Assembly: GCA_017623575.1 (NCBI GenBank)
Contig: JAGAOS010000064.1
Span: forward strand, 1 to 37,766
DNA: 37,766 nucleotides
Source of the DNA: Clostridia bacterium
GTDB lineage: Bacteria > Bacillota > Clostridia > Oscillospirales > Acutalibacteraceae
Direction of reading: 5' to 3'
This document shows, piece after piece, positions 3,823-23,277 of the stretch (the first letter of the stretch is position 1; each line of letters opens with the position of its first letter). The notes below the pieces were generated by a model. It had not been told where the DNA came from, searched no databases, and saw nothing but the letters and a program-made list of their open reading frames with translations. The translations under genes were made by a program, and so were the position numbers.

Positions 3823-3866
3823 AAATTTGTAAAAGAATTTTTATGCAAAGTAAAGGAGATATTTTT

Positions 3867-4937
3867 ATGGAACCTATTAAAATTGGTATTGTGGGTATCG
3901 GTCGTGCAGGATGGGGTGCCCACACAAATGAAATTGCAGACAAGGAAGATATGTTTAAAATCGTTGCCGCTTGCGATATTATTGATGAGCGCAATGAGAT
4001 TATGGCAGAAAAATACGGTTGCCGTACATACACAAAGGTTGAGGACCTTGTAAACGATCCCGAGGTTGAGCTTGTAGACATTGCAACCCGCTCAATTGAC
4101 CATTACAAACACGCTAAGATGGCTTTAGATGCAGGCAAGGCTGTTTTGGTTGAAAAGCCGCTTTCTGTTGAATATGAAGAAGCTAAAGACCTTATGGATA
4201 ACAGCAATAAGCCGGGCAAACCCAGACTTTTTGTTCGTCACAACCGCCGTTTTGAGCTTGCCTTTAACGAAGTTTTAAAAACAATTAACTCCGGTATTTT
4301 GGGTGATGTTTATGAGGCAGGTACAACCCAGCGTAGCTTTGAATTCCGTGACGACTGGCAGACCTTAGAGGAGTTTGGCGGCGGACTTTTCAGAAACTGG
4401 GGTCCCCACCTTATAGACCATTGCTTACATCTTTTAGGCGCACCCGTTGCCGATACATACAGCGAATTCAAACAGGTTACTGCAGGCGGTGACAGCGAAG
4501 ACCACATTTATATTCGTCTTATGGGTGAAAATGACCGTACCGTAACGCTTTCACTTACAGGTGCCGCCACACTCGGAGTTGGACGCACCTTCTATGCATA
4601 TGGTAATCGTGGCTCGATGGAGGTTATTGGTAATCACGTTAAGCTTCGCTACATAAATCCCGAACAGGTCATACCCGAGCCTGTTGCCAATCCCGGCGCA
4701 CCCGCAATGAGTTTTGGCAAAAGCGGTACTTTCGCTACCAAAACTCCTATTGAATGGATTGAAAAGGAATACGATTTAGAGGGAGAAAACCTTTCGCAGA
4801 TGTGGACACACCTTTACAAGGATTTCCGTGAAGGAATCCCCTATCCTATCACCGATGAAGAGGCTCTGGAGGTTATCAGAGTTATTGCAATGATTAAAAA
4901 TAACACCAAGATAACCAAAATTAAAAAGAGTAAATAA
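3867..4937 (+). CDS. Gfo/Idh/MocA family NAD(P)-dependent oxidoreductase
   Basis: A 356-residue dehydrogenase of the Gfo/Idh/MocA family, cytoplasmic enzymes that oxidise or reduce sugars, inositols and related polyols with NAD(P). The N-terminal Rossmann fold shows GIVGIGRAGWGAH within the first 20 residues. The family EKP motif (VEKPLS, catalytic-type lysine near residue 97) is present, followed by the alpha/beta substrate domain. An upstream in-frame ATG at 3843 exists, but the ATG at 3867 has an ideal AAGGAG site (3853-3858) and starts exactly at the Rossmann strand. It shares a promoter with the amidohydrolase 12 bp downstream, suggesting the two act on one sugar-type substrate. The exact substrate is unknown. 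Confidence 0.92.
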   Translation: MEPIKIGIVGIGRAGWGAHTNEIADKEDMFKIVAACDIIDERNEIMAEKYGCRTYTKVEDLVNDPEVELVDIATRSIDHYKHAKMALDAGKAVLVEKPLSVEYEEAKDLMDNSNKPGKPRLFVRHNRRFELAFNEVLKTINSGILGDVYEAGTTQRSFEFRDDWQTLEEFGGGLFRNWGPHLIDHCLHLLGAPVADTYSEFKQVTAGGDSEDHIYIRLMGENDRTVTLSLTGAATLGVGRTFYAYGNRGSMEVIGNHVKLRYINPEQVIPEPVANPGAPAMSFGKSGTFATKTPIEWIEKEYDLEGENLSQMWTHLYKDFREGIPYPITDEEALEVIRVIAMIKNNTKITKIKKSK

Positions 4938-4949
4938 TTAGGTGCTTCA

Positions 4950-5654
4950 ATGTATAATTGTCTATCTTTACCAAAGTTAACACACTCTCCCATCGATATT
5001 CATTCCCATTTTAACCATGGTTCGGAATTTGATTGTCCTGAAACAGCAATCCATATTAGAGGAATTGATTTTGTTGAATCGGTATATCAAAAAGCAAATA
5101 TTTCGCAGGTTGGAATTTCCACCTTTCCATCCGTATTTGAACACACAGAAAGTATCGTAGACGAAAATGAATATTTACATAAACTAACAGACGAAAAAGA
5201 ATGGGTATATCAGTGGGTGGTGATTGATCCAAGGCAAAAGCAAACCTATAATCAAGCGAAAAAAATGCTACCTCACCCCAAAGTTTTAGGTATCAAAATA
5301 CATCCATCTTTTCACGAATACGATTTTTTAGATTATGCAGACGAACTCTTTGCCTTTGCAAACGAGAATAAATCGGTTGTATTGATGCATCCACAACATA
5401 TATCACAAATGCCATCGCTTATAGATAATTATCCTGATATGAAGCTCATAATCGCACATCTGGGTTCGGTGGAACACATAGATGCTATCGCCAATACACG
5501 GCACGGTAATATTTATACTGATACCTCCGGTAGTGCAAGTTCATTCAATAACGTTATTGAATATGCCGTAAAGCAAGTAGGCTCAGAAAAAATTCTTTTT
5601 GGAACTGATACCTACGCTTTTGCTTTTCAATTTGGTAGAATTGCGCTTTCGTAG
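4950..5654 (+). CDS. TIM-barrel amidohydrolase (amidohydrolase_2-like), ended early by an amber codon
   Basis: A 234-residue metal-dependent hydrolase of the amidohydrolase superfamily. Visible metal-site motifs in order: IDIHSHF near the N-terminus, GIKIHPSFHEYDF, VLMHPQH, LIIAHLGS and the late FGTDTYAF aspartate. Such enzymes hydrolyse lactones or amides, or decarboxylate ring acids. The frame stops at TAG (5652-5654), but the same frame continues for 23 sense codons to TAA at 5724-5726. That extension encodes an amphipathic helix ending NLFPKAFK, the usual end of this family (an N-A-x-x-L-F helix). TAG serves as a normal stop in hrcA, grpE and other genes here, so recoding is unlikely. A recent nonsense mutation, a sequencing error or a tolerated truncation are the alternatives. 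It follows the oxidoreductase gene by 12 bp. Confidence 0.82.
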   Translation: MYNCLSLPKLTHSPIDIHSHFNHGSEFDCPETAIHIRGIDFVESVYQKANISQVGISTFPSVFEHTESIVDENEYLHKLTDEKEWVYQWVVIDPRQKQTYNQAKKMLPHPKVLGIKIHPSFHEYDFLDYADELFAFANENKSVVLMHPQHISQMPSLIDNYPDMKLIIAHLGSVEHIDAIANTRHGNIYTDTSGSASSFNNVIEYAVKQVGSEKILFGTDTYAFAFQFGRIALS

Positions 5655-5831: not shown

Positions 5832-6641
5832 TCATTTGTGCTCGGTTGGATTTATTGAAGCACTATTTTTATAGACAAATGGTGATAAACCAACCTTGCT
5901 TTTAAATATTTTGCACAGATATGACGCTGAACAAAAACCGACTAACTCAGCAATTTCCTGAGTTGTTTTTTCAGGTGCGTCTAAAAGTATTTCTTTTGCC
6001 ATCTCAATCTTTTTATTAAGTATATATTCCATAGGCGGAACACCAAAATTTTTAATAAAAAGTCTTCGCAAATGTGCAGGCGAATAACCTGAAATTTGTG
6101 AAAGAAAAGAAGGCGTTATTTTTTTGTAATAGTTAATGTTTATATATTCTATAGTTGATAAAAGCTTATGTTTATCCGTATAGACCTCGCTTTTTTCCAG
6201 TCTTTTTAAGCAAAGCAGATATAAAAGTTTTAAAAATAATTCGGCAATTTTAATTTTAGACAGATATGCGCCAGAACGGTGAACCTCGCCTATTTCCTTG
6301 AATAAGTTAAGAGCGTTTAACTCTTTTGTTACGGTATTAATTTGAAAATCAAAATCATATTCACAATAAAAAGAAATAAAGTAATATGAAATATCTTCAT
6401 TCGAAACATTTGTAAAAGTAACCTTTTCAAAACTCCGGATAAAAACAATATCGCCTGCATTGCAAATTTCATTATACTCTTTAGTGCAAACCCCCATTTT
6501 ACCCGATTCAACATAAAAAAATGCAGCACATTCAGTAGCTTGTGTACACTCCCAACCAGCACGATGCCTATAATAACCCGCATTTTTAAATGCCTTTATT
6601 GGATTTGCAGTAAAATTGTCAAAATCATTTATATTCTTCAT
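5832..6641 (-). CDS. AraC-family transcriptional regulator (lyase operon)
   Basis: A 269-residue AraC/XylS regulator. Residues 1 to about 150 form a cupin-like sensory domain (AAFFYVESGKMGV, then a GDIVFIRSFE strand). Residues from about 165 carry the two-HTH DNA-binding domain, with SPAHLRRLFIKNFGVPPMEYI in the first half and TQEIAELVGFCSASYLCKIF in the second. The ATG follows AAAGGAA on the minus strand. It is divergent from the five-gene lyase operon, and the shared intergenic region holds two TGAGCG half-sites 21 bp apart next to the -35 of that operon. I infer it activates the operon in response to a sugar-type ligand. It is convergent with the amidohydrolase gene. Confidence 0.93.
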   Translation of the reverse strand: MKNINDFDNFTANPIKAFKNAGYYRHRAGWECTQATECAAFFYVESGKMGVCTKEYNEICNAGDIVFIRSFEKVTFTNVSNEDISYYFISFYCEYDFDFQINTVTKELNALNLFKEIGEVHRSGAYLSKIKIAELFLKLLYLLCLKRLEKSEVYTDKHKLLSTIEYININYYKKITPSFLSQISGYSPAHLRRLFIKNFGVPPMEYILNKKIEMAKEILLDAPEKTTQEIAELVGFCSASYLCKIFKSKVGLSPFVYKNSASINPTEHK

Positions 6642-6700: not shown

Positions 6701-6732
6701 ATAAATGAGCGAATTATTATATAAATTGAGCG
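6701..6732. promoter_or_regulatory. Putative AraC operator: two direct half-sites 21 bp apart
   Basis: ATAAATGAGCG (6701-6711) and ATAAATTGAGCG (6721-6732) are direct repeats sharing TGAGCG exactly 21 bp apart, two helical turns. This is the geometry of AraC I1/I2-type sites. The second copy ends 9 bp before the -35 of the rightward promoter, a class II activator position. Binding is inferred. Confidence 0.6.
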
Positions 6733-6741
6733 TAGATTATA

Positions 6742-6770
6742 TTGAAATATGTGCACTATGATTGTATAAT
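6742..6770 (+). promoter_or_regulatory. Promoter of the lyase operon
   Basis: TTGAAA (6742-6747), a 17-bp spacer, and a perfect TATAAT (6765-6770). The first gene starts 29 bp downstream behind AAGGAG. Confidence 0.7.
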
Positions 6771-6799
6771 TACAATAATAAAATATATAAGGAGTAGCT

Positions 6800-7804
6800 A
6801 TGAAAGCGTTAGTTGCAATACAAAAGAATGAAACCTTCGATACTTTTTTCACAAAAGATAATATTGCCTTTGCCGAATCACTCGGTACAATTGTATGGCA
6901 TAATACAGCAAATGAATCTTTGGATGAATTAAAAGCAAAAATAAAGGATTGCGATACCTACATAACCTGTTGGGGTTCACCGTCACTCACGCCCGAAATG
7001 CTTGAGTGTGCACCAAAACTAAAATTGCTGACTCACCTAGGTTCTACTGTAGCCCCTGTTGTATGTAGCGAGGTTTATGAGCGTGGTATAAAGGTCATAA
7101 GCGGATTTGACTATTTTTCAAAATCAACAGCTGAAGGTACAGTAGCATACATGTTATCGGCAATGCGAAAGATACCTTTTTATAATCATAGATTGAAAAA
7201 CCAAAAAATATGGCGTGAAGCAGATGATTATACAGACAGCGTTATATATAAAAAGGTAGGGCTTGTTGGCTATGGTGGCGTTGGTCGATATGTTGCTAAA
7301 ATGCTTAGTAATTTTGATGTTGATATTAAAGTAAACGACCTTCTCGCACTGCCGGAAAAAGATAAAAAACTTTTTGGCTTTACAGAATGCAGCATAGAAG
7401 AAATTTTTGAAACCTGCGATATCATATCAATTCATCTGCCGTACAACAACAGCACACACCATATAATTGATGATACTTTGCTTTCAAAAATAAAACCCGG
7501 CTCGCTGCTTGTTAATACGTCCCGTGGTGCTGTAATTGATGAGGCGGCAATGATAAAGCACCTTCAAAACAATGATTTTAATGCAGCCCTTGATGTTTAT
7601 GAACAAGAACCTATTAATATGTGCAACCCTATGTTGTCACTTCCCAATGTTTTAATGCTTCCACATCAGGCCGGAGTTACCGTAAATTTGCGTGCAGTAC
7701 TTACGCATAATCTACTACAGGAAAGTGCCGACTTCATTGATAAAGGAATACCTGTAAAAAATGAAATATCTGCTGAAAAAGCTAGAAATATGTCTAAATT
7801 TTAA
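6800..7804 (+). CDS. D-isomer-specific 2-hydroxyacid dehydrogenase family protein
   Basis: A 334-residue NAD-dependent dehydrogenase of the phosphoglycerate/2-hydroxyacid dehydrogenase family, which interconverts 2-hydroxy acids and 2-keto acids. The nucleotide fold shows VGLVGYGGVGRYVA. The catalytic triad can be placed: Arg242 in NTSRGAVIDE, Glu270 in YEQEP and His289 in LPHQAG. There is no regulatory ACT domain, which argues against a serine-biosynthetic SerA. It is the first gene of the AraC-controlled operon, 11 bp ahead of the lyase gene. I infer it reduces or oxidises an intermediate of uronate or aldonate breakdown. The ATG follows AAGGAG. Confidence 0.92.
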   Translation: MKALVAIQKNETFDTFFTKDNIAFAESLGTIVWHNTANESLDELKAKIKDCDTYITCWGSPSLTPEMLECAPKLKLLTHLGSTVAPVVCSEVYERGIKVISGFDYFSKSTAEGTVAYMLSAMRKIPFYNHRLKNQKIWREADDYTDSVIYKKVGLVGYGGVGRYVAKMLSNFDVDIKVNDLLALPEKDKKLFGFTECSIEEIFETCDIISIHLPYNNSTHHIIDDTLLSKIKPGSLLVNTSRGAVIDEAAMIKHLQNNDFNAALDVYEQEPINMCNPMLSLPNVLMLPHQAGVTVNLRAVLTHNLLQESADFIDKGIPVKNEISAEKARNMSKF

Positions 7805-7815
7805 GGAGAAGAACT

Positions 7816-9768
7816 ATGCTTAATTCACCATATAAAAAGCCTTATATCACTCCACCAAATGAACACCCCCGTGTAATGTTCAGACAGTCAGATAAAGAAA
7901 GAATAGTCAACAACTTTTCTCACATAGAAAATCATCGCGCATATGACCTCTGGCAACGCATCTGCAAAAAAGATTTCCGCCAGTTTTATGATGATATTGC
8001 TATAGGTCGCTATAATCTAATGGTCTGCTTTATGATAGAAGCAAAGGCTTTTGAGGCATGGGTTCTTGACGACGACAAAAAGGCTCGAGACATTATTGAA
8101 AACACCAAAAAGATATTGGAACTATACAGCATTGACCGAAATGTAAATCTTATGCTTTGCCGTTATACAGGCCATATTGTTTTCGTGTCATCACTCGTTT
8201 ACGACTGGCTTTACAAAAATCTCACCGAAGAAGAAAAAACTTTTTTTATTACCAAATGTGAGCAATTTTTAGAGGCGGCTATGGAGGTTGGATATCCACC
8301 CGTAAAACAACGCAATACACATTCTCACTCACACGAGGCACAGTATCTTCGCGATATGCTTGCTTTTTCTATAGCCGTCTATGATGAACGCCCCGATATA
8401 TATGACTTTGTTGCCGGTAGAATTATTGATGATTTGGTGCCATTTTATAAATTCAGTTTTTCCGCAGGCATACATAATCAAGGTGCATCTTATGGTGCTT
8501 ACCGTCAGGTTTCGGTTCTTTGGGCGCAACTGCTTTTCTACCAAATGAGCGGACAAAAAATATTTGACGAATGTGTAGAAAATGCTGATTGTTATTATTA
8601 TCTTACCAGAGCAGACGGAGAAAACCTACGCATAGGTAATGATTGCCACGATGACAAAGGCGGAGGTCATGCAATAAAGCATCCGTTTACCATTGTAAAT
8701 TTCTTTGCGGCGGCACTAACAGGTAATGAAAGTTATCGTAAATATTATTTTGAAAATTCCCGTGACGAGATTTTAATGCCAACTCATTACGGAAGGGATT
8801 TATATAAAACCGATGTTTACGGTGAGGGACTTTATTCTCCTGTAGTACATCTTATATTCAATCGTCTCACAGAGCCTTTTACTCCCGCACCTTATGAAAA
8901 AACAAGATATTTCCCATATCCTGCAGGTATTACAATCTATAAGGATGAGGATAAAAAAACCACTGTTTATATGAAAATAGGTGAACTTTGGTGTCAGGGC
9001 CACGAGCATTATGATACGGGTGATTTCCAGATATATCATAACGGCATTTTGGCATCAAGCTCGGGTGCATATTATTGGTATGGCTGTGAGCATTTTTATA
9101 ATTATGACACTAGAACCTCATCGCATAACTGTCTGACCGTTCGCGACCCAAAGGTTAAAACCCTGGGTCAGATAACCGAATGGGGCAAAACCTTTGATTA
9201 TATAAATGACGGGGGCACTCGTATGCCAAGTCCCACTACAGATTATGATTTTGAGCCTGATTTGGCTGCTGCTTGGCAGCGTGACTGCAAAATGGCAAAG
9301 GTGTTATCGCACACAGAAACTGATGAAAAGGTTGAAATTGTCGGCGATTTAAGTATGGCCTACCCCGATACAGCCGAAAAAATAATAAGAAAAATGACCT
9401 TCTTGCCAAAGGAGGGTGAAAACGGTATATTTACCGTAGAGGACGAGGTTGTTTCAAAAAGCGAGGACTTCATTAAGTGCTTTCATATTCATATGATGGA
9501 AGAGCCTGAAATTGAAGGCAATGTAATTACCATTAAACACAAGGGCGGTAAATTACGCTGTACCGTTATAGAACCCCGAAACGCAAGTATTACTGCAATC
9601 GGTGGCGGAGACAACCGCTTTACCATAGTGGGCAAGCCTATACCTGTACCAAGTGAATATTTAGAAAATCGTGAATGCGGTTGGGGTAAGGTAATTATTT
9701 CACCTACCGATAAAGCAAAAGCACACAAATTCAAGGTAATAATGGAAATACTTGACAACGAAATTTAA
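7816..9768 (+). CDS. Heparinase II/III-like polysaccharide (oligosaccharide) lyase
   Basis: A 650-residue protein with the heparinase II/III layout: an N-terminal alpha/alpha-toroid (about 1-340) and a C-terminal antiparallel beta-sandwich. The early HPRVMF strand, the histidine-rich NTHSHSHEAQ (residues 167-176), GASYGAY, the GHEHYDTGDFQIYHNG block (His396/His398 region) and TRTSSHNCLTV are hallmarks of the family. Such enzymes cleave uronate-containing glycans by beta-elimination. No signal peptide is visible (it starts MLNSPYKKPYITPP), so it probably works in the cytoplasm on imported oligosaccharides. It is the second gene of the operon. I cannot assign a PL family or substrate; heparin specificity should not be assumed. 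Confidence 0.88.
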   Translation: MLNSPYKKPYITPPNEHPRVMFRQSDKERIVNNFSHIENHRAYDLWQRICKKDFRQFYDDIAIGRYNLMVCFMIEAKAFEAWVLDDDKKARDIIENTKKILELYSIDRNVNLMLCRYTGHIVFVSSLVYDWLYKNLTEEEKTFFITKCEQFLEAAMEVGYPPVKQRNTHSHSHEAQYLRDMLAFSIAVYDERPDIYDFVAGRIIDDLVPFYKFSFSAGIHNQGASYGAYRQVSVLWAQLLFYQMSGQKIFDECVENADCYYYLTRADGENLRIGNDCHDDKGGGHAIKHPFTIVNFFAAALTGNESYRKYYFENSRDEILMPTHYGRDLYKTDVYGEGLYSPVVHLIFNRLTEPFTPAPYEKTRYFPYPAGITIYKDEDKKTTVYMKIGELWCQGHEHYDTGDFQIYHNGILASSSGAYYWYGCEHFYNYDTRTSSHNCLTVRDPKVKTLGQITEWGKTFDYINDGGTRMPSPTTDYDFEPDLAAAWQRDCKMAKVLSHTETDEKVEIVGDLSMAYPDTAEKIIRKMTFLPKEGENGIFTVEDEVVSKSEDFIKCFHIHMMEEPEIEGNVITIKHKGGKLRCTVIEPRNASITAIGGGDNRFTIVGKPIPVPSEYLENRECGWGKVIISPTDKAKAHKFKVIMEILDNEI

Positions 9769-9791
9769 AAAAATCAAAAAGAGGAAAGCTT

Positions 9792-11093
9792 ATGGACATA
9801 TCCCAAATTAAAGATACTATTTTAACTACTGCACAAGAAGTAAATGAGTGGGCAAAAAATATCGCAAGCGAAATTTCCAAAAATCCTGAAATGGGTTTTT
9901 GTGAAGAAAAAAGTTCTGCAATAGTTAGAAAAGCGTTCGATGAATTAGGTATAAATTACCAATATCCACTCGCTCTTACAGGAGTTAAAGCTACACTAAA
10001 AGGCAGAAGTAGCAACTTTAACATATGTATAATCGGCGAGCTTGACGCAATAGTTTCGCCGGAACATCCTGACGCTAATTCTAACGGTGTCGTACACGCT
10101 TGTGGTCATTCGGCACAAATTGGTGCAATGCTGGGTGCGGCTTATATTCTTAAAAAAAGCGAGGTTATGGAGTATTTAGACGGTGACATAACCTTTATGG
10201 CTGTTCCCGCTGAGGAGTTTAACGAGCTTGAATGCCGCGCTACGCTAAAAAATCAGGGTAAAATTAAATATTTTAGTGGCAAACAACAGCTTGTTTATGA
10301 GGGCGCCTTTGATAATGTAGATATGGCAATTATGTTTCACGCTATGGGTGATGAACCAAATGCCAAGTTATATGTAAGAGGAAATAATTTAGGATTTATT
10401 TCAAAAAAACTTATTTTTAAGGGCAAGAGCGCACACGCAACCCAGCCCGACCAAGGGATTAATGCATTAAATGCGGCGGCACTTACTATTTTAGGCATAC
10501 ATTCCAATCGTGATACATTCCGTGAGGATGAGCGTATAAGAATACATCCCATAATCACCAAGGGCGGTGATGTTGTAAACTCTGTACCCGGTAGGGTGGA
10601 AATGGAAATGCAGGTTCGTGCGGCAACGCCTGAGGCAATCTCTAAAGCGAATGAAATTGTAAATCGTGTAGCAAGTGGAGCCTGCCAAATGATAGGCGCA
10701 GAATTTGAGACCGAAGATTTAGTGGGATATTTGCCACTTAAAGAAGATGAGCAAATAACTTGTGTTATGGAAGGAATTGCCAAAGACCTTATTGGTGAGG
10801 ATAACATTGTGAGTAATTACACTCTTGTGGGCTCTACCGATATGGGTGATATAAGCAGCATAATGCCCGCTGTTCAGCCGTCAATAGGCGGTTTTACAGG
10901 TGGTCTTCATTCAAAGGATTTTAAAATCGTAAATGAAGATACTGCGATAATGCTACCGGCAAAGCTTATGGCATTAACTGCGGCAGAGTTGCTTTTTGAT
11001 AACGCAAAAGGTGCAAAACTAGTTAAAGAAAATTTTAAACCACTTTTTACAAAACAAGAATATCTTAAATATTTAGAAGGAGAAATAAACTAA
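9792..11093 (+). CDS. M20 family amidohydrolase (AbgB/hippurate-hydrolase-like)
   Basis: A 433-residue metallohydrolase of peptidase family M20. The metal-binding elements are visible: GELDAI (Asp85), VHACGHSAQ (His102, His106) and VPAEEF (Glu141/Glu142). It also has the inserted dimerisation domain with GKSAHATQPDQGINALNAA and the C-terminal GGLHSKDF histidine. Members remove acyl or aryl groups from amino acids, p-aminobenzoyl-glutamate or amino sugars. Its place in a lyase operon suggests deacylation of an N-acylated sugar fragment, which is inference. The ATG follows AGAGGA. Its TAA overlaps the next gene's ATG by one base, indicating translational coupling. Confidence 0.9.
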   Translation: MDISQIKDTILTTAQEVNEWAKNIASEISKNPEMGFCEEKSSAIVRKAFDELGINYQYPLALTGVKATLKGRSSNFNICIIGELDAIVSPEHPDANSNGVVHACGHSAQIGAMLGAAYILKKSEVMEYLDGDITFMAVPAEEFNELECRATLKNQGKIKYFSGKQQLVYEGAFDNVDMAIMFHAMGDEPNAKLYVRGNNLGFISKKLIFKGKSAHATQPDQGINALNAAALTILGIHSNRDTFREDERIRIHPIITKGGDVVNSVPGRVEMEMQVRAATPEAISKANEIVNRVASGACQMIGAEFETEDLVGYLPLKEDEQITCVMEGIAKDLIGEDNIVSNYTLVGSTDMGDISSIMPAVQPSIGGFTGGLHSKDFKIVNEDTAIMLPAKLMALTAAELLFDNAKGAKLVKENFKPLFTKQEYLKYLEGEIN

Positions 11094-12121
11094 TGTCGCA
11101 TAAGCTTTGGACAGAAGAAAAACTAAACGAACTTTTATCAACCCCAAGCAATGCTTTGGTAGAGGATATAAAGAAAATAAAAGGAGATATTATGGTGCTC
11201 GGTGCAGGTGGTAAAATGGGGCCAAGCCTCTGTCTGCTTGCAAAAAATGCCATTGATAAGGCAGGAATAATCAAAAAGGTTTATGCCGTATCCCGAGGCA
11301 GTGATAAAATCGCCACAGAACTTATGCTTAAAAATGGTATAGAAGTAATTGCCTGTGATTTATTAGATAAGGAAAAGCTTTACACTCTGCCCGAGGTAGA
11401 TAATATTATCTATATGGCGGGGAAAAAGTTTGGTACCAATGGTAATGAGTGGCAAACTTGGGGAATGAACTCTGTGTTACCCACATTTGTTGCCGATAAA
11501 TTCAAAAAATCTAACATAGTTGTATTTTCATCGGGCAATATTTATCCTATTGTACCACTCTCTTCCGGCGGTTGTACCGAGGAAGACAATGTGGGCCCTA
11601 ACGGTGAATATGCTATGAGTTGTCTTGCACGTGAACGCACATTTGAATATGCTGCTAATACATACGGCACAAAGGTTTTTATCTATCGTCTTAATTTTGC
11701 AGTTGATCTTCGTTATGGTGTAATATTTGATGTTGCAAACAAAATCTTAAAAGGTGAGCCAATAAGCCTTTCTACCCCTTGTTTCAACTTTATTTGGCAA
11801 GGTAGTGCCAACGAATACGCTATAAGAGGCTTATTGCACGCAACCTCTCCTGCAACTATTATGAATATAACAGGACCTGAAACTATATCTATCAAAAAAA
11901 TGGCTATAAAATTAGGTTCTTATCTTGGTAAAAAACCAATTTTTGAAAACGAGTACGGTTTTGATGCTTATCTTAATGATGCATCAAAAGCAATGGAAAC
12001 ATTCGGTTATCCTAAGTTTAGTGCTGAAACACTTATACGTTGGCAAGCTGAGTGGTTACTTGACGGCGGCAGAACACTTGACAAGCCTACCCATTTTGAA
12101 GAAAGAAAGGGCAGTTACTAA
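11093..12121 (+). CDS. NAD-dependent epimerase/dehydratase-like extended SDR, YxxxC variant
   Basis: A 342-residue protein with an extended-SDR Rossmann fold. The nucleotide loop is MVLGAGGKMGPSL (residues 34-46), preceded by a 33-residue leader. The strand with the SDR serine is VFSSGNIYP (Ser146/Ser147). At the active-site helix the sequence is EYAMSCLARER, so Tyr173 is followed by Cys177 where the general SDR motif YxxxK has lysine. Either catalysis differs, the lysine role is filled elsewhere, or the protein is a non-redox partner. A second good ribosome site (AAGGAG, 11181-11186) lies before Met34, but the upstream start is tightly coupled to the M20 stop, so I keep it. The substrate is unknown. 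Confidence 0.87.
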   Translation: MSHKLWTEEKLNELLSTPSNALVEDIKKIKGDIMVLGAGGKMGPSLCLLAKNAIDKAGIIKKVYAVSRGSDKIATELMLKNGIEVIACDLLDKEKLYTLPEVDNIIYMAGKKFGTNGNEWQTWGMNSVLPTFVADKFKKSNIVVFSSGNIYPIVPLSSGGCTEEDNVGPNGEYAMSCLARERTFEYAANTYGTKVFIYRLNFAVDLRYGVIFDVANKILKGEPISLSTPCFNFIWQGSANEYAIRGLLHATSPATIMNITGPETISIKKMAIKLGSYLGKKPIFENEYGFDAYLNDASKAMETFGYPKFSAETLIRWQAEWLLDGGRTLDKPTHFEERKGSY

Positions 12122-12123
12122 TT

Positions 12124-13191
12124 ATGGTAAGACATTTAAAAGCACTTCAGATTTTAAAAAAAGGTACAGTTATTCCGGCAACACCCTTAGCATTGGATGA
12201 AAACAGGAATTTTGACGAATACTCACAACGATTACTTATGAAGTATTATTTAAACTGTGGTGTTGGCGGTATTGCAACAGCTGTTCATTCTACACAGTTT
12301 GAAATTCGAGATCCAAAGGTTAATCTTTTTGAACCAATCTTAAAATTGGTATCGGAGGAGATTACTGATTTTGAAAATAAAACCGGCAAAGTAATCGTTA
12401 AGGTTGCAGGTGTTTGTGGTAAAATTGGACAAGCAGTAGCAGAGGCAAAACTTGCCCAAAAATACGGCTATGATGCGGTATTGCTAAGCCCCGGTGGGTT
12501 AAATGATTTATCAGAAGATGAGTTTGTTACTCATACAAAAGCAGTAGCAGAGATTATTCCTGTTATTGGTTTTTATTTACAAACCGCAGTAGGAGGCAGA
12601 CATTTCTCATATAAATATTGGCAACAAATTTGTGAAATTCCAAATGTAGTTGCCATAAAAGTAGCTCCGTTCAATCGTTATATGTCTTTAGATGTTGTTC
12701 GTGCAGTTGCACTTTCTACACGCAGAGATGAGATAACTCTTTACACAGGTAATGATGACAACATCGTAATCGACTTACTTACTACATATAAATTTGACGT
12801 TGACGGTACACATTATGAAAAAGGATTTGAAGGCGGATTGTTAGGTCACTGGTCAGTATGGACCAAACGTGCGGTAGAACTTTTTGAACTTTGCAAAAAA
12901 GAAAAGAGTAAAGGGCAGATTTCTGCCGAAATGTTATCACTTGCAAATGCTGTTATCGATTCAAATGCCGTTCTTTTTGACGGAACGAACGGTTTTGCAG
13001 GCTGCATCCCCGGTCTTCATTATGTGCTAAAAAAGCAAGGTCTTATGAAAACTCTTAACTGCATAAACCCAAATGAAGTGTTATCTTGCGGTCAGGCTGA
13101 AGAGATAGAGAGAATTTATGATATGTATCCTCAACTTGTAGACGATGATTTTGTAAAAGAAAATATTGAAAACTGGAAATCAGAATTATAA
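12124..13191 (+). CDS. Dihydrodipicolinate synthase (DapA)/NAL-family aldolase, divergent
   Basis: A 355-residue class I aldolase-type TIM barrel of the DapA/N-acetylneuraminate lyase family. The barrel start PATPLALDENRNFDEY, the central tyrosine Tyr151 in GFYLQTAVGG and the Schiff-base lysine Lys179 in VAIKVAPFNRY are recognisable. The usual GTTGE motif after strand two is replaced by AVHSTQFE, and the protein is longer than DapA (about 290), so lysine biosynthesis is unlikely. Family members cleave or form 2-keto-3-deoxy acids using pyruvate. As last gene of the lyase operon (2 bp after the SDR gene) it may perform the final retro-aldol step. A bidirectional terminator follows. Confidence 0.88.
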   Translation: MVRHLKALQILKKGTVIPATPLALDENRNFDEYSQRLLMKYYLNCGVGGIATAVHSTQFEIRDPKVNLFEPILKLVSEEITDFENKTGKVIVKVAGVCGKIGQAVAEAKLAQKYGYDAVLLSPGGLNDLSEDEFVTHTKAVAEIIPVIGFYLQTAVGGRHFSYKYWQQICEIPNVVAIKVAPFNRYMSLDVVRAVALSTRRDEITLYTGNDDNIVIDLLTTYKFDVDGTHYEKGFEGGLLGHWSVWTKRAVELFELCKKEKSKGQISAEMLSLANAVIDSNAVLFDGTNGFAGCIPGLHYVLKKQGLMKTLNCINPNEVLSCGQAEEIERIYDMYPQLVDDDFVKENIENWKSEL

Positions 13192-13210: not shown

Positions 13211-13244
13211 AAAACTCCGTGCGAAATTAAACGCACGGAGTTTT
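13211..13244. terminator. Bidirectional terminator after the lyase operon
   Basis: A perfect 13-bp stem AAAACTCCGTGCG/CGCACGGAGTTTT (13211-13223 with 13232-13244) with an 8-base loop. It separates the rightward lyase operon from the leftward permease gene. Confidence 0.9.
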
Positions 13245-13271: not shown

Positions 13272-14234
13272 CTAAAAAATCAAATCCTTTAATGCAGCAA
13301 TAGATTCGGCATTAATTGCCAGAGCAACAATTGCTATGACCGCTAAAACAATTCCAAAAAGCTTCATTTTATCTATTTTTTCCTTGAAGAAAATCACAGA
13401 ATAAACCGCCGAAAGCACCAAAACGCCACCGTTATCAATAGTATAAAGGATTGTAACAATATTGCCCAAAAGAGGTATTAAAATCATATACACATTTATT
13501 GCCGTTGCCGCAATAAAAAGGCACAAAATAAGCGGTAATACTGCTTGTTTACCAATTTTAAAGGCGGCTGCAGTTTGCTTTTTCTCTTTAAAAGCAAGCT
13601 GTATTAAAGCGATTATGCCCATAAGCCCATATGTAATTATTATCATTTCATTGCTTTCTTTTTCGGCATGGCCGCTTTGTACCTTCATAAACACACCGTA
13701 AAGACCGTTGCATACAAACAAAATTATACAGTATATATAATAAATAAGTGGCGTGCCTTTTAACTTCATATCCTTATAATTCATAAGAACAAAGGATAAA
13801 AGCATAACGGCAATTGCAATGTAGTGGTGCAGCTCTAACATATGGCCCGTAAACATTTCATAAATGGCGGGGATAACTATTCCGCCAAAAAGCATTGCTA
13901 CATTCATGAATGCATATGAACCTTTATCGGCTGCCTTTATAATTGCGATGTTATAACCAAACAAAGCCACTGCATTAAATACGCCTATTACAACGGTAAA
14001 AATAGACGGAGCAAAATGAAAACCTTCCCAACTTGCAAAAACACCGCTTTCTGAGGCACCTATGCCAAACGCCATCCACACAAGGGTAAAAACAACTATA
14101 AATGCACCTTCTAAAACACAAAAAACCAATGAAGAGAGCTCTTCTTTACCCTTATATTTACGATTAAAGAATGTACAAAAAAGCGTTTGCAAGCTATAAA
14201 GCAAAACAATAGATATAATTAAAATCGCCTGCAT
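13272..14234 (-). CDS. DMT/EamA-like membrane transporter
   Basis: A 320-residue, very hydrophobic protein with about ten predicted membrane helices, typical of the drug/metabolite transporter superfamily. The last helix pairs include the short cytoplasmic FFKEKIDKMKLFGIVLAVIAI, a standard ending of EamA-type proteins. It lies 2 bp downstream of the uncharacterised gene at 14237-15106 on the same strand, so the two are translationally coupled. It could import a product needed by the nearby catabolic genes or export a by-product; neither is shown. The stop is TAG, followed by the terminator shared with the lyase operon. Confidence 0.82.
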   Translation of the reverse strand: MQAILIISIVLLYSLQTLFCTFFNRKYKGKEELSSLVFCVLEGAFIVVFTLVWMAFGIGASESGVFASWEGFHFAPSIFTVVIGVFNAVALFGYNIAIIKAADKGSYAFMNVAMLFGGIVIPAIYEMFTGHMLELHHYIAIAVMLLSFVLMNYKDMKLKGTPLIYYIYCIILFVCNGLYGVFMKVQSGHAEKESNEMIIITYGLMGIIALIQLAFKEKKQTAAAFKIGKQAVLPLILCLFIAATAINVYMILIPLLGNIVTILYTIDNGGVLVLSAVYSVIFFKEKIDKMKLFGIVLAVIAIVALAINAESIAALKDLIF

Positions 14235-14236
14235 AA

Positions 14237-15106
14237 CTATTCACCTAGTTCGATGTTTTTGTTCTTTTCTATCCAATTTCTAAGCCAATATTCACTTGGC
14301 AAACCAATTCCCATTACGCAGTTGGTTAAGAAAATCATACCGTCTATCTGATTTTCTTTAAGCATTTTAAGACCAAATTCGCACTGATGCTCCATTAAAT
14401 CATTTGGAATGGGCTCACCTGACATATAGTCATAAATATAAATGCCCAAATAGAGCTTTTTATTTGGAAATGCTTTTTTGACAGCATTAAAATTGGTTTC
14501 AAGTTTTGGCAAATCCTTCATCTCCCAAGTCCAGAGAGATAGCCCTGTAAAGTTGTTCCAAAATTCGGGATTTTCGTCCCAAAGTCTTGCCTCAGCATTG
14601 CTTATGTAAACGGTTGCCCAAAGCTCCATTGGCTTGCAAGCATTTTTAAAGGTAGAAGTTACGCTATTTAAAATCGCCTGATTTTTTTCTTTTTTCTCAG
14701 TAAGCTCCTTTAAAAGCGCTTCATCTTCTATATTCCCAAGGTCATCGTTAAAAAATAAATCGTCAGCAAAACCACCCATAACATTGGGGTATTTTTTTGC
14801 CATATCACAAATGAAAGCCTCTTCATTACCGCTTCTAAAACCGCCCGAGCCCGTAACGCTCCAAAGCACTCTATCCAAACGGCAAAAGCTTTCGGCATAA
14901 CCCAAAGCGTCATATGAAAATGGCACAGGCTCACCACCCGATGAACCAACCATAATAATATTAGGTATATCAAGCATAAAACAACCCTCAGCGGGCGTAA
15001 TGCGAGATTTTTTTAAATAGCGATGATGTGTAGGCGATTTACCAAGCGATGGATCATCGTCATGAGCGCAACTGGCAAAAAGCCATAGTTTATCTCTTAC
15101 TGTCAT
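14237..15106 (-). CDS. Conserved-looking protein of unknown family (possible TIM-barrel)
   Basis: A 289-residue soluble protein I do not recognise. It begins MTVRDKLWLFASCAHDDDPSLG and has no signal peptide. Alternating hydrophobic strands (IPNIIMVGSS, LWSVTG, VMGGFADDLFF, MELWATVYI, LSLWTWEM, KLYLGIYIYDY, IDGMIFLTNC) suggest an alpha/beta barrel such as a glycoside-hydrolase-like fold. Acidic ends of several strands (GGFADD, LWTWEMKD, YIYDYMSGEP) could form an active site; this is inference. A GTG nine bases upstream (15113-15115) is possible, but the ATG at 15106 is better spaced from AAAGGA. It overlaps nothing and is coupled to the DMT permease, suggesting a shared substrate. Confidence 0.75.
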   Translation of the reverse strand: MTVRDKLWLFASCAHDDDPSLGKSPTHHRYLKKSRITPAEGCFMLDIPNIIMVGSSGGEPVPFSYDALGYAESFCRLDRVLWSVTGSGGFRSGNEEAFICDMAKKYPNVMGGFADDLFFNDDLGNIEDEALLKELTEKKEKNQAILNSVTSTFKNACKPMELWATVYISNAEARLWDENPEFWNNFTGLSLWTWEMKDLPKLETNFNAVKKAFPNKKLYLGIYIYDYMSGEPIPNDLMEHQCEFGLKMLKENQIDGMIFLTNCVMGIGLPSEYWLRNWIEKNKNIELGE

Positions 15107-15139
15107 AAAAAACACATCCTTTTTTTATTATGCCTATTA

Positions 15140-18889: not shown

Positions 18890-19666
18890 ATGCAGCTTTT
18901 TCACGATATACGCATTGGCAAAATGTCTATAATAGTTCAAAAAAAGGAAAAATCCAATTTTATTTTTAACTGCATAAGCAGAAATTTTGACGGATTTATT
19001 TTTATTACCGACGGTGACGGCTTTTTTATCGATGCCTCGGGCGAGCATCACCTTAAAAAACATTCGGTTATGCTTTTGCAAGCAAAACACAAATATATTT
19101 TTAAAGGCGGCAAAAATGGAATAACTTATATAACAACAGGCTTTTCCCTTCACCCTGAGGGTGGTTTCGACGAGCTTGGATTACCCACTTATATTGATAC
19201 CGAAAAACACCCGTATGTTTTAAAGCAAGCCGAAGAAATGCTTAACCTATGGGAAAACCGCTCCCCCTTTTATATTATGGAATCCAGACTTAAGGCTGAG
19301 CATATACTAATTGACTTAATAAATATCTGCAACAATGCATCAACAGGTTATGAGTTTGGCGGAAGACTCTCCCCCGCACTTACCTTTATTAATCAGAATT
19401 ATGATAAAAACATAACCAATGAACAATTGGCCGACCTTTGTGATTTAAGCACCACCCACTTCAGACGGCTTTTTAAGGAACAGATGAAGCTTTCGCCTAT
19501 GCAATACCGTGAAAACATACGCATACATTGGGCTATAAAGCTACTTGAAAGTCAGATGTTTACCATTTCTGAGGTTGCCGAAAAGCTTGGATATTCAGAT
19601 ATATACCACTTCAGCAAGGTTATAAAAAGACATACAGGTAATCCACCATCCTTTTACAAAAAATAA
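18890..19666 (+). CDS. AraC-family transcriptional regulator (second)
   Basis: A 258-residue AraC/XylS regulator. The N-terminal half is a cupin-like sensor (FDGFIFITDGDGFFIDASGE and the HSVMLLQAKHKYIF strand). The C-terminal 100 residues hold two HTHs: ITNEQLADLCDLSTTHFRRLF, with SPMQYRENIRIHWAIKLL as linker helix, and TISEVAEKLGYSDIYHFSKV, ending in a typical GNPPSFYKK. The ATG follows GGTGGTG. It is divergent from the DUF5107 gene and upstream of the secreted SGNH gene. Two perfect 20-bp repeats lie between it and the SGNH promoter and are the likely target, which is inference. Confidence 0.93.
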   Translation: MQLFHDIRIGKMSIIVQKKEKSNFIFNCISRNFDGFIFITDGDGFFIDASGEHHLKKHSVMLLQAKHKYIFKGGKNGITYITTGFSLHPEGGFDELGLPTYIDTEKHPYVLKQAEEMLNLWENRSPFYIMESRLKAEHILIDLINICNNASTGYEFGGRLSPALTFINQNYDKNITNEQLADLCDLSTTHFRRLFKEQMKLSPMQYRENIRIHWAIKLLESQMFTISEVAEKLGYSDIYHFSKVIKRHTGNPPSFYKK

Positions 19667-19800: not shown

Positions 19801-22800
19801 ATGAAAAAACTTCTAGCACTACTTTTATTCGTCTGCTTAATGGCGACGAGTATGTTTACCGGTTCAGTATATGCGCTTGATGACGTAGATATGGATGTGG
19901 GTATGGATACGGAGGATGGATTTTCAGACTACTCTACATCGTTCGAAGAATATACAGTTGGTGATTCTTTGGTTCATACGGACCAAAGCACTCAGTTCCC
20001 TTCCGTCGGGGAATGGGGCGGAATTAAAACCGCAGGATATAGAGGTCAAACCTTTGCAGGCACCTTCTATGATAATCAGGGTAACGAACATACCCAATAT
20101 ACATCCGGCAGTTATTCATCCGCAATAGAAGTAACTTCTTCATCCAATTATTTCTATTCGGGAAGCAAATCTCTTTATTTCAAAGGTTCCGGTTGGGCTT
20201 TTGCAACGGCTATTGAGAATGTTGAGCCCGGCAAAACCTATACGGTATCTTACAGAATAAAACGCGACCCAACCGTAACTGCCAGAACCTTACTTAAAGC
20301 TACGGCTGTTTTGACTACTTTGAATATTGGTCTTAATAATGTAGTTGATTCTAATTTTAATAATCACATTTGTAACCTTTATAATACCCTTGCACTTTCA
20401 GTTAAAAAAAGCATAGATATTTCAAGCGACAACTGGGAGCTTATTTCCATGGAATTCACCCTTCCCGAAAAGGCAACAAATCTTACTACAGTTTATCTGG
20501 TTATGGATTCAACGGGTAATGGTACTAATATTGTTAATCAGTTCTATATGGACAACCTTACCGTAGCCGAAAAAAAGGAAGAAATTAAAATTGATGAAAT
20601 TCCGGTTGAGTTTGTAAATATTAAAGGTGAAGTTGTTGAAGACTCCAATGCTTACGGTGAAGTTGAAATTGACACTAACGATGATAATACTGTAAATCTT
20701 GCGGTAAAATATATTGATTCATTCGCTTATGATTTCTTAGGCTGGTATGATGCCGATGACAATCTTGTGAGTCAAGAAACCACACTAAAAAATGTTGCCC
20801 CCGAAGATGCCGCAAATTATACAGCAAAGATTAAAAGCTCCAATATGATGCCTGCCGCTTCTTTTGAAGGATATGAAAATGGCACCATTCTTGTGCACAC
20901 AAATAAAAACGAAGAAGCACCTAGCGGTGTATACTTCGGCGGTCAAAAAACAGCCGGATACCGTGGTCAAACCTTTGCAGGCACAATATACGATAATAAG
21001 GGTAACGCCTACACCCAAACTGCAACCGGAAGTTACAGCAATATATCAACCGTTACAATAACCGATTCCCAAGCCCATTCGGGTAATCGCTCACTTTATT
21101 TTGAGCAACAACACTGGGCAACCGCAACAGCAATTTCAAATGTCAAGCCAGGTCGTACCTACAACCTTTCTTTCTGGCTAAAACGCGGTGAAACAACTAA
21201 CACAAAAATAAAGAATATTGCCGTTACAACAACAGTTAACTTCGGTTCAAGCGGTATTGCGGGAACCAGTACAGCTCACCTTTGTAACAACTATCCTACC
21301 TTTGGACTCACCCTTTCAAACGGTGAAACTTCTCTAAAGGATTTTAATATTTCCAGCGGCGATTGGGAAAAAGTTGATTTTAAGTTCACTGTTCCGGAAA
21401 CTGCTGTCAATCTTAATACGGTTTATTTAATTCTTGATTCATCAGGTGTTTCGTACGGTACTGAAAACACTGCAAAATTCTACATTGACGATATTTCAGT
21501 TTCAGAAGTATTTGACAGAATAAAAACCGCCTATAACGATGCCGCCGCTCTGCGCACCGCAGCCGCAAGCTCCACAGGCAAAAACGGTATGCGAATTTAC
21601 AATAAAATCAATAAAGATTTTATTACTGAATATGGTATTACCGAATATGGCTCGGTTGTTGCTTTAAATTCAAAACTTGAAGGCGAGCTTACATTAGATA
21701 GTGAAAATAGCGTTAAAGGCATTGCTTACAACAGCAATACCGTAACAACGCCCATTCTTTTTGATACTACAGATACTGCAAACATTTATACTGCATACCT
21801 TACAGGTATTCCCACAAGCAATTATGATGATGAATATATTATTCGCGCATATGCTATAGACGGTACAGGTACTGTTTATTACGGAGAGCCAACAGCCTTG
21901 AGTGTGTTTGATGTTGCCACCGCAATTGATAACGGCAACGGACCTTCGGCACAAACCGAAGAAGATATAACTGCATTTAATGTATTCGCAGGCGGTAAGG
22001 ACGGTAAATTTACTATGTATGATAATTATTTAAAATCCGAACTTAAATTCGCAGGTAAGCTCAGAAATATTGCTAAGGCAGAAGACACCCTTAGCGGCGC
22101 TGACCTTACCAAGGCACTTGAGACCGACGGATACTATGAGCCTTTCTTTGAAAGAGCAATAGCAAATATGGGCAACCGCGCAATGCTTAAAGCTATGTTT
22201 GAAAAGGCAGAGCGTGGTGAGGATATTACCGTTGTAGGCTTTGGCGGCTCCATTACCCAGAAGGCCGCTTGTACAAACGAGCTTGACAGTTACTCTCACC
22301 TTGTTGCCGTATGGCTTAGAGAAAAGTTCCCGAACATAACGGTTAATTGGCACAATGCAGGTATTGGCTCTACAACATCTGTTTTAGGTATTGCAAGAAT
22401 GCAGGATCATGTGCTTAGCTTTAATCCCGACCTTGTAATTCTTGATTTTACCACCAATGACCAGCCCAACGATTACCACGCAGGCTCTTATGAGGCTATT
22501 CTCCGCACCCTTTACGAAAAGCAGATTGCAGTTATTACCATTACATTCGGTAATGTAAACAGTAGCGAATATAATAAAGGTGTTTGCCTTAGAGGTACAA
22601 ATCGTGAGGATTTGCACGGTCCCGTAATGCTTTACAATGATGTTCCCGTTATTGACTACTATGGCGTAATGTGGGATTGCTACTTAGATTCAGACGGTGA
22701 CGGATATAATGTGGAGTCCGATGCCGCACATTGGAAGAAGCTTTGGGCGGATTATATTCATCCCACCCAAATCGGTCACAAGCTTGCCGCTAACGCAATC

Positions 22801-23277
22801 AATCACTATTTAGGCAAGGTTTATGCCGATATGGATAACATAACCGAAGCCGTTACCTACCCCAACGCTCCCCTTGATAAGTACACCGAATACTTTATGG
22901 GTACTATGATGTACGGTGAGGCAAATATTGGCGATTTACTTACAGATTCCTACAATGTTACAATTGGTACATATTCCAACTACGATTCTACTACCGTTTC
23001 TAACTGGACTATATGGCAGATTGAGCAAGGCGGATATGTTGAATTTACCATTGATAAGTGCAAGCTTTTTGCTCTTATGAGCATTAACTGTCCCGAAGCC
23101 CCCGTTGCTAAAATTTATATAAACGGTACACTCGCGGCAACACACACCGCAAAACGAGATAGCAATCTTAATTGGATGAACTTTATAAAGTTCTTTGACG
23201 GTAACGATACTGTTACGGTAAAAATTGAATGTACCAGTGGTAGCTACCGTATAACCAGCGCACTTATTGCAAAATAA
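19801..23277 (+). CDS. Large secreted SGNH-hydrolase protein with duplicated beta-sandwich modules
   Basis: An 1158-residue exported protein with a signal peptide (residues 1-25, cleavage after SVYA). Residues about 40-255 and 349-570 are two copies of one module, sharing GYRGQTFAGT, YDN(Q/K)GN and the order of later strands; they resemble carbohydrate-binding (CBM4/9-type) jelly rolls. An InlB/Listeria-Bacteroides-like repeat (about 258-345, FLGWYDADDNLV) lies between them. After a linker region (about 575-740) comes the SGNH esterase domain: Ser817 in GFGGSITQ, Gly854 in NAGIGS, Asn886 in TTNDQ and Asp984/His987 in DYIHPTQ. A final beta-sandwich ends the protein. No sortase motif or S-layer repeat is seen, so it is probably secreted. 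Likely role: deacetylating a plant or host glycan. AAAAGGAG precedes the ATG. Confidence 0.88.
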   Translation: MKKLLALLLFVCLMATSMFTGSVYALDDVDMDVGMDTEDGFSDYSTSFEEYTVGDSLVHTDQSTQFPSVGEWGGIKTAGYRGQTFAGTFYDNQGNEHTQYTSGSYSSAIEVTSSSNYFYSGSKSLYFKGSGWAFATAIENVEPGKTYTVSYRIKRDPTVTARTLLKATAVLTTLNIGLNNVVDSNFNNHICNLYNTLALSVKKSIDISSDNWELISMEFTLPEKATNLTTVYLVMDSTGNGTNIVNQFYMDNLTVAEKKEEIKIDEIPVEFVNIKGEVVEDSNAYGEVEIDTNDDNTVNLAVKYIDSFAYDFLGWYDADDNLVSQETTLKNVAPEDAANYTAKIKSSNMMPAASFEGYENGTILVHTNKNEEAPSGVYFGGQKTAGYRGQTFAGTIYDNKGNAYTQTATGSYSNISTVTITDSQAHSGNRSLYFEQQHWATATAISNVKPGRTYNLSFWLKRGETTNTKIKNIAVTTTVNFGSSGIAGTSTAHLCNNYPTFGLTLSNGETSLKDFNISSGDWEKVDFKFTVPETAVNLNTVYLILDSSGVSYGTENTAKFYIDDISVSEVFDRIKTAYNDAAALRTAAASSTGKNGMRIYNKINKDFITEYGITEYGSVVALNSKLEGELTLDSENSVKGIAYNSNTVTTPILFDTTDTANIYTAYLTGIPTSNYDDEYIIRAYAIDGTGTVYYGEPTALSVFDVATAIDNGNGPSAQTEEDITAFNVFAGGKDGKFTMYDNYLKSELKFAGKLRNIAKAEDTLSGADLTKALETDGYYEPFFERAIANMGNRAMLKAMFEKAERGEDITVVGFGGSITQKAACTNELDSYSHLVAVWLREKFPNITVNWHNAGIGSTTSVLGIARMQDHVLSFNPDLVILDFTTNDQPNDYHAGSYEAILRTLYEKQIAVITITFGNVNSSEYNKGVCLRGTNREDLHGPVMLYNDVPVIDYYGVMWDCYLDSDGDGYNVESDAAHWKKLWADYIHPTQIGHKLAANAINHYLGKVYADMDNITEAVTYPNAPLDKYTEYFMGTMMYGEANIGDLLTDSYNVTIGTYSNYDSTTVSNWTIWQIEQGGYVEFTIDKCKLFALMSINCPEAPVAKIYINGTLAATHTAKRDSNLNWMNFIKFFDGNDTVTVKIECTSGSYRITSALIAK

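Follow-up and report, generated by a model that had tools for sequence, protein, structure and literature searches.

A conserved five-gene catabolic set in a Clostridia genome

Analysis of contig JAGAOS010000064.1 (37,766 nucleotides, analysed in full and hereafter called the window), which belongs to a metagenome-assembled genome (MAG) of a gut-type Clostridia bacterium from the Acutalibacteraceae (GCA_017623575.1), revealed a set of 5 genes that is supported as an operon-like catabolic unit; the set is real and conserved, and it is probably an undescribed catabolic variant. The 5 genes, all on the forward strand (6800–13191) and separated by gaps of 11, 23, −1 and 2 bp in the open reading frame (ORF) calls, encode a D-2-hydroxyacid dehydrogenase family protein, a heparinase-II-like lyase, an M20 amidohydrolase/deacylase, an extended short-chain dehydrogenase/reductase (SDR)/epimerase-like protein without the YxxxK lysine and a divergent class I aldolase of the DapA/NAL superfamily. 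The SDR-like protein and the DapA-like aldolase are the conserved core of the set. The best-supported level of function is a cytosolic sugar-acid pathway that would end in pyruvate, and we tentatively favor the more specific reading of an AraC-controlled cytosolic operon for the catabolism of uronic-acid/N-acyl-amino-sugar oligosaccharides.

The tight packing of the 5 genes had been described in a first-pass annotation of the sequence and was borne out by our ORF calls, in which a divergently oriented AraC gene precedes them; the family assignments made there were likewise upheld by Pfam and NCBIfam, with all 5 proteins scoring above the respective Pfam cut-offs. The AraC-family regulator (5832–6641, reverse strand) matches HTH_18 with 59 bits and HTH_AraC with 41.6 bits. 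A homologue with 66% identity occupies the same place in the locus of the closest relative (L039), and homologues with 42–43% identity are found beside M20-SDR-DapA genes in loci L022 and L023. We infer that this protein controls the operon. The window corresponds to a complete contig from an 82-contig, 2.04-Mb MAG that is 70% complete, and hence the absence of a gene from this genome is weak evidence.

Recurrence of the five families

The DapA-like protein has matches in 18 of 394 genomes of the order and in 5 of 398 genomes of a phylum sample, the window's own genome being included in both counts, and no relative was found in viral contigs. A scan of named genomes with the same protein retrieved 589 or more related stretches, distributed over many phyla, the best 80 of which were kept with their flanks (hereafter, the 80 loci). 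Gene presence in these loci was recounted by tblastn, as longest-ORF calling produced antisense artefacts in loci rich in GC and made a few loci appear to be without the aldolase. All 5 families occur together in 3 of the 80 loci, namely, L039, in which the gene order is the same as in the window, and L051 and L082, both from other Clostridia MAGs, in which the order is DapA, lyase, binding-protein-like, M20, SDR, TetR-like and dehydrogenase (the binding-protein-like and TetR-like genes were named by eye; L051 is the same contig as L032 of the order sample, judging by its length of 156,733 bp). Thus, the joint occurrence of the families, which the first-pass annotation had proposed to look for across genomes, is not absent elsewhere. 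A window-type M20 gene is present in 11 of the 80 loci and a 2-hydroxyacid dehydrogenase gene in 6, three of the latter being only 28–30% identical.

Across the order, the lyase family was identified in 7 of the 394 genomes, 5 of which also carry the DapA-like gene (hypergeometric probability 2e-6); the association holds when the window's genome is left out (4 of 6 genomes, 3e-5) and also when one member of a same-genus pair is removed (3 of 5, 5e-4). Profile matches to the M20 protein are more common (72 of 394 genomes), and the 7 highest scores all come from genomes with a DapA-like gene. Collectively, the recurrence of the 5 families exceeds chance, supporting genuine co-occurrence.

The lyase and the 2-hydroxyacid dehydrogenase

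The heparinase-II-like lyase (7816–9768, forward strand) matches Hepar_II_III_C above the cut-off (36.5 bits). Its best NCBIfam and PDB matches are both to heparinase II, the PL21 enzyme of Pedobacter heparinus (2FUQ being the closest solved structure), and the HepB model covers nearly the full length of the protein (residues 13–649), although the score of 236.8 bits is below the curated cut-off of 600 bits. Table 4 of PMC12088678 assigns catalytic roles in heparinase II to His202, Glu205, Tyr257 and His406, and the equivalents of these residues, H171, E174, Y226 and H396, occur in all 9 aligned sequences, including that of the window. Unlike heparinase II, the window lyase has no signal peptide, as claimed in the first-pass annotation: the N-terminus is not hydrophobic (best 12-residue mean of −0.55 within the first 50 residues), and because it lacks a hydrophobic leader, the protein should act on imported oligosaccharides. 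As for the metal site (His408, Asp425 and His464 in heparinase II), the 2 histidines are kept as His398 and His437, and the position of Asp425 varies among the aligned sequences, being Ser in the window lyase.

In two genomes of one genus (G060 and G245), a Gfo/Idh/MocA domain is fused to a heparinase-II-like lyase (L161:9507–12458 and L162:8744–11704; 983 and 986 aa), an arrangement that fits a cytosolic role of the lyase. The fused protein adjoins a second lyase-like protein which, in L161, the one scanned, has a DUF4962+Hepar_II_III layout; this layout has been reported for exolytic PL15_2 heparinases (PMC7904915).

The dehydrogenase (6800–7804, forward strand) matches 2-Hacid_dh_C (PF02826) with 164.6 bits, above the cut-off, but every listed NCBIfam model scores below its cut-off, the best being PGDH (161.2 versus 454 bits). 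The dehydrogenase gene also adjoins the lyase gene in L039, L163 and L164. In genomes G291 and G192, the two genes occur together in the absence of the SDR and DapA-like genes, accompanied by a gene for a xylose-isomerase-like TIM barrel.

The deacylase, the lysine-less SDR and the DapA-like aldolase

The M20 protein (9792–11093, forward strand; Peptidase_M20, 44.8 bits, above the cut-off) scores 193.5 bits against TIGR01891, exceeding the curated cut-off of 153.75, and has the IAA-amino-acid hydrolase and HmrA as its closest solved relatives. Neither of the remaining 2 proteins has a close solved structure or an NCBIfam match above the cut-off.

The SDR-like protein (11093–12121, forward strand; Epimerase, 38.5 bits, above the cut-off) shares with the extended SDR epimerase/dehydratase family (PF01370; closest solved members TerB and GalE) the NAD-binding glycine motif of the GxxGxxG type and the conserved Ser and Tyr, but differs in the absence of the catalytic lysine. 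The tyrosine (Y173) is conserved in 53 of 53 sequences, whereas position 177 (Tyr+4) is occupied by C, V, T or S and never by K; instead, an invariant Arg-Glu is found at Tyr+7/+8, with R180 (Tyr+7) present in all 53. As the canonical lysine is missing, the enzyme may not be a plain dehydrogenase and may catalyze chemistry other than simple hydride transfer.

The DapA-like protein (12124–13191, forward strand; DHDPS, 31.7 bits, above the cut-off) retains the lysine and tyrosine typical of the class I enzymes of the DapA/NAL superfamily (KdgD, NAL and DHDPS): K179 and Y151 are invariant in 51 of 51 sequences and fall, in alignments with NAL and DHDPS, in the regions of the corresponding residues. 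It also carries Ser/Thr-Thr at a position which we take to be that of the pyruvate-binding motif. Nevertheless, with 355 aa and a C-terminal region of its own, the protein is far from all named families, scoring 25.2 and 22.4 bits against the KdgD models (cut-offs 278 and 373.95) and 24.9 bits against NAL (cut-off 281).

The SDR–DapA pair in other genomes

The SDR gene was found in 77 of the 80 loci and is directly adjacent to the DapA-like gene, on the same strand, in 75; it is located approximately 5.2 kb away in L051 and L082, and is absent from the fragment in L048, L090 and L110. The partners of the pair vary (Pfam names were assigned to one representative per group, and the larger tally is based on a scan of 68 out of 278 collected neighbour genes). 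In Paenibacillus, the pair is accompanied by genes for the alpha and beta components of L-serine dehydratase, an M20 enzyme and Gfo-like proteins, and in Prescottella, by L-serine ammonia-lyase and M20 genes. Bacteroidota combine it with an Nramp-like transporter and a PQQ-type sugar dehydrogenase, and Streptomyces and Glaciihabitans with sugar ABC transporters, Gfo and a hydroxyacid dehydrogenase. On 3 alphaproteobacterial plasmids, the gene between SDR and DapA encodes a GNAT protein in two cases and a TetR protein in the third. In related Clostridia, the gene run of the pair includes a PL8 lyase in L040 and a GH88-family gene in L045. Liv amino-acid-type transporters (identified largely from their size and from BPD_transp_2 matches) and Nramp-like transporters also occur beside the pair.

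Haloarchaeal plasmids encode the SDR with other partners and no DapA-like gene listed beside it (L190, 10001–11008; L182, 12001–13026), the partners being Nramp, Gfo and a fumarylacetoacetate-hydrolase-family gene, or a DegT aminotransferase. RidA and PIG-L genes are found near a haloarchaeal SDR.

Two themes recur among the partners, one of uronic-acid or sugar import and the other of an amine or N-acyl group, and the M20, L-serine dehydratase and GNAT genes are as suggestive of an amine/N-acyl group as they are of a uronate. We consider it possible, if somewhat doubtful, that the lysine-less SDR and the divergent DapA-type lyase constitute an undescribed two-enzyme step in Bacillota, Bacteroidota, Actinomycetota, Alphaproteobacteria, Planctomycetota and others (and, for the SDR, haloarchaea) which feeds many sugar-acid and amino-sugar pathways into pyruvate, and that the window operon couples this step to a cytosolic heparinase-like lyase, yielding a uronic-acid glycan route that bypasses KduI-KduD-KdgK-Eda. 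A literature search limited to titles and abstract openings returned no description of the five-gene set or of the pair, and what these side-by-side enzymes do appears not to have been established before. The DapA-like family is widespread and, in the loci examined, nearly always found beside the SDR. Identification of its substrate would account for an orphan step in the catabolism of soil, marine and gut bacteria and show which pathway the heparinase-like lyases inside the cells of gut Clostridia supply.

Proposed pathway and alternatives

In the pathway that we tentatively favor, oligosaccharides with a uronic acid and probably an N-acyl amino sugar would be imported and then cleaved intracellularly, through beta-elimination, by the heparinase-II-like lyase. 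The M20 enzyme would strip an acyl group off an amino-acid-like intermediate, and the SDR-like protein and the DapA-like aldolase would act consecutively to convert a sugar acid to pyruvate and a short aldehyde, with the 2-hydroxyacid dehydrogenase disposing of or interconverting a 2-keto/2-hydroxy acid product. The sugar acid to be cleaved would be a 2-keto-3-deoxy acid derived either from an unsaturated uronate or from an N-acylhexosaminate. This proposal builds on the protein families, the catalytic residues, the lack of a signal peptide, the recurrence of the set and the tight SDR–DapA pairing; the substrate, the order of the steps and the sugar acid are inferences. Also in its favor are the association of the lyase with the DapA-like gene across genomes, the top M20 scores in genomes with the latter, the PL8 and GH88 genes of L040 and L045, the Gfo-lyase fusions and the grouping of sugar ABC transporters with SDR, DapA and hydroxyacid dehydrogenase genes in Streptomyces and Glaciihabitans. 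A similar route, from an unsaturated acylated sugar, had been read from the gene order in the first-pass annotation. The operon-like nature of the unit, the intact leaderless lyase and the co-occurrence of the 5 families stand; a match of gene order to reaction order (the gene order differs in L051 and L082), the unsaturated acylated sugar and the individual steps are best treated as conjectural.

Several observations weigh against the proposed pathway. A heparinase-II-like match is present in just 5 of the 80 pair loci, one of them weak and partial (L058), and therefore the general substrate of the pair need not be an unsaturated uronate. Two of the 7 best M20 genes (in G087 and G175) lie on other contigs, with other neighbours and away from the pair. 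The lyase position equivalent to Asp425 of heparinase II is Ser in the window and L039 and Asp in the other 7 sequences. Sulfatases, few of which are found in genomes carrying the window-type set, show no enrichment among genomes with the lyase (7 of 10 versus 145 of 197 in the order): the five-family genomes G000, G786, G297 and G787 have 0, 1 (68 bits), 1 (32.7 bits) and 0 matches, respectively. GH88 matches were found in none of the 8 lyase genomes of the test set and in 4 of its 6 other genomes. The sulfatase and GH88 patterns do not fit the textbook heparan pathway, and sulfated heparan as the substrate was lowered in rank on the basis of the sulfatase counts. Pointing the other way, G291, a lyase genome devoid of the pair, has 7 sulfatase matches, with one sulfatase near the lyase.

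The standard route for 4-deoxy-5-keto-uronate (DEH) and 2-keto-3-deoxygluconate (KDG) consists of KduI, KduD, KdgK and Eda. The window module would also end in pyruvate, but none of these enzymes is encoded among the 5 genes and the window aldolase belongs to another superfamily; the first-pass statement that KDG kinase and uronate isomerase are missing is true of the window, within a 70% complete MAG. In the 14 genomes tested, KduI-family genes are present in 5 and Eda-family genes in 9, in each case elsewhere than the unit, with no KduI-family match in G060, G245, G297 and G787. Thus, some genomes may have a standard KDG route at their disposal. The window's own genome has a KduI/IolB-family gene on another contig, which was rejected as part of the pathway because it sits in a cluster with genes for an FAD-oxidase, an Fe-S protein, a class II aldolase, PfkB and FGGY kinases and ETF. 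This cluster (L171, on G000:C24, and L172; annotated by eye) is conserved between the window's genome and its closest relative. In the genome of the closest relative, the Eda gene adjoins a PfkB-type kinase gene (named by eye), to which the window's genome has only a partial match of 26.5 bits.

We also compared the module with loci for 3-keto-glycoside degradation, which combine Gfo/Idh with xylose-isomerase-like TIM-barrel genes. Genes of both kinds recur near the pair and the Gfo-lyase fusion exists, but the five-gene operon includes no such gene, and the NCBIfam glycoside 3-dehydrogenase models match the window protein at 3843–4937 far below the cut-off.

The recurrence of M20 and L-serine dehydratase with the pair in Paenibacillus and Prescottella brings up an alternative, which we regard as rather unlikely, whereby M20 deacylates an N-acylhexosaminate (a C1-oxidized amino sugar), enzymes resembling L-serine dehydratase and encoded elsewhere deaminate it to a 2-keto-3-deoxy acid, and the DapA-like protein splits the latter, with the SDR oxidizing or epimerizing upstream. 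The GNAT genes in 2 Alphaproteobacteria, the Liv and Nramp-like transporters and the RidA and PIG-L genes near a haloarchaeal SDR are in line with such a route. However, the L-serine dehydratase near the pair scores above the canonical cut-offs, and the cluster copy (assigned by coordinates) is the sole SDH_alpha gene in 5 of 7 Paenibacillaceae genomes, which weakens the case for a special deaminase paralogue; the enzyme probably acts on L-serine itself. Furthermore, the window operon includes no L-serine dehydratase, nor did a search of the genome, which is 70% complete, turn one up.

A route confined to unsaturated uronates is unlikely. In such a route, the uronate released by the lyase would give rise to DEH, the SDR would reduce it to KDG, and the DapA-like protein would cleave KDG unphosphorylated to pyruvate and glyceraldehyde, M20 merely trimming the partner sugar. 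The intact catalytic residues of the lyase, the class I aldolase residues, the PL8 and GH88 genes in L040 and L045 and the 4 genomes with no KduI-family match are all compatible with this scheme. Nevertheless, the reductase step would fall to an SDR which, unlike known DEH reductases, lacks the YxxxK lysine in all 53 sequences. In addition, 75 of the 80 pair loci have no heparinase-II-like match, Eda and the PfkB-type kinase of the closest relative could handle KDG in the standard way, and the M20, L-serine dehydratase and GNAT partners would be left unexplained. Finally, a serine- or glyoxylate-linked pathway, in which M20 frees L-serine from an amide (e.g., a uronoyl-serine amide), serine dehydratase removes the serine and the pair degrades the rest, appears very unlikely: L-serine dehydratase is encoded beside or close to the pair in Paenibacillus and Prescottella and M20 relatives, by the names of those with solved structures, hydrolyze acyl-amino acids, but serine as part of the substrate has no direct support, the window operon has no serine dehydratase gene and sugar-type ABC transporters recur with the pair.

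Regulatory signals and neighbouring genes

Returning to the favored operon, a promoter-like site (TTGAAA-17-TATAAT, 6742–6770, forward strand; 11 of 12 consensus positions, by consensus match only) precedes the first gene, and a terminator-like hairpin (13211–13244, forward strand; 13 pairs, 7 of them G-C) follows the last one. Both are plausible operon ends, although neither scan overall exceeds chance (40 promoter-like sites in the region versus 37.7 expected and 7 terminator-like sites versus 8.0 expected); the hairpin has the longest stem, the next one having 8 pairs.

Downstream, an EamA transporter (13272–14234, reverse strand; EamA, 30 bits) is possibly, but uncertainly, the importer for the module. 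An EamA gene shares a gene run with the SDR–DapA pair in L049, and L068 encodes a protein resembling the window EamA (N-terminus judged by eye), but the gene is not adjacent to the operon in L039. Two base pairs from the EamA gene lies a gene for a 292-aa protein (14237–15115, reverse strand) with no Pfam or NCBIfam match and no tblastn homologue at E 1e-10 among the neighbourhood loci searched.

Upstream of the AraC gene, the window encodes a Gfo/Idh/MocA dehydrogenase and amidohydrolase-2 pair (3843–5654, forward strand), which is not found near the operon in L039. Farther downstream, a secreted-looking protein of 1158 aa (19801–23277, forward strand), with a putative GDSL/SGNH-like region, judged by motif, is encoded beside a second AraC-like gene (18890–19666).

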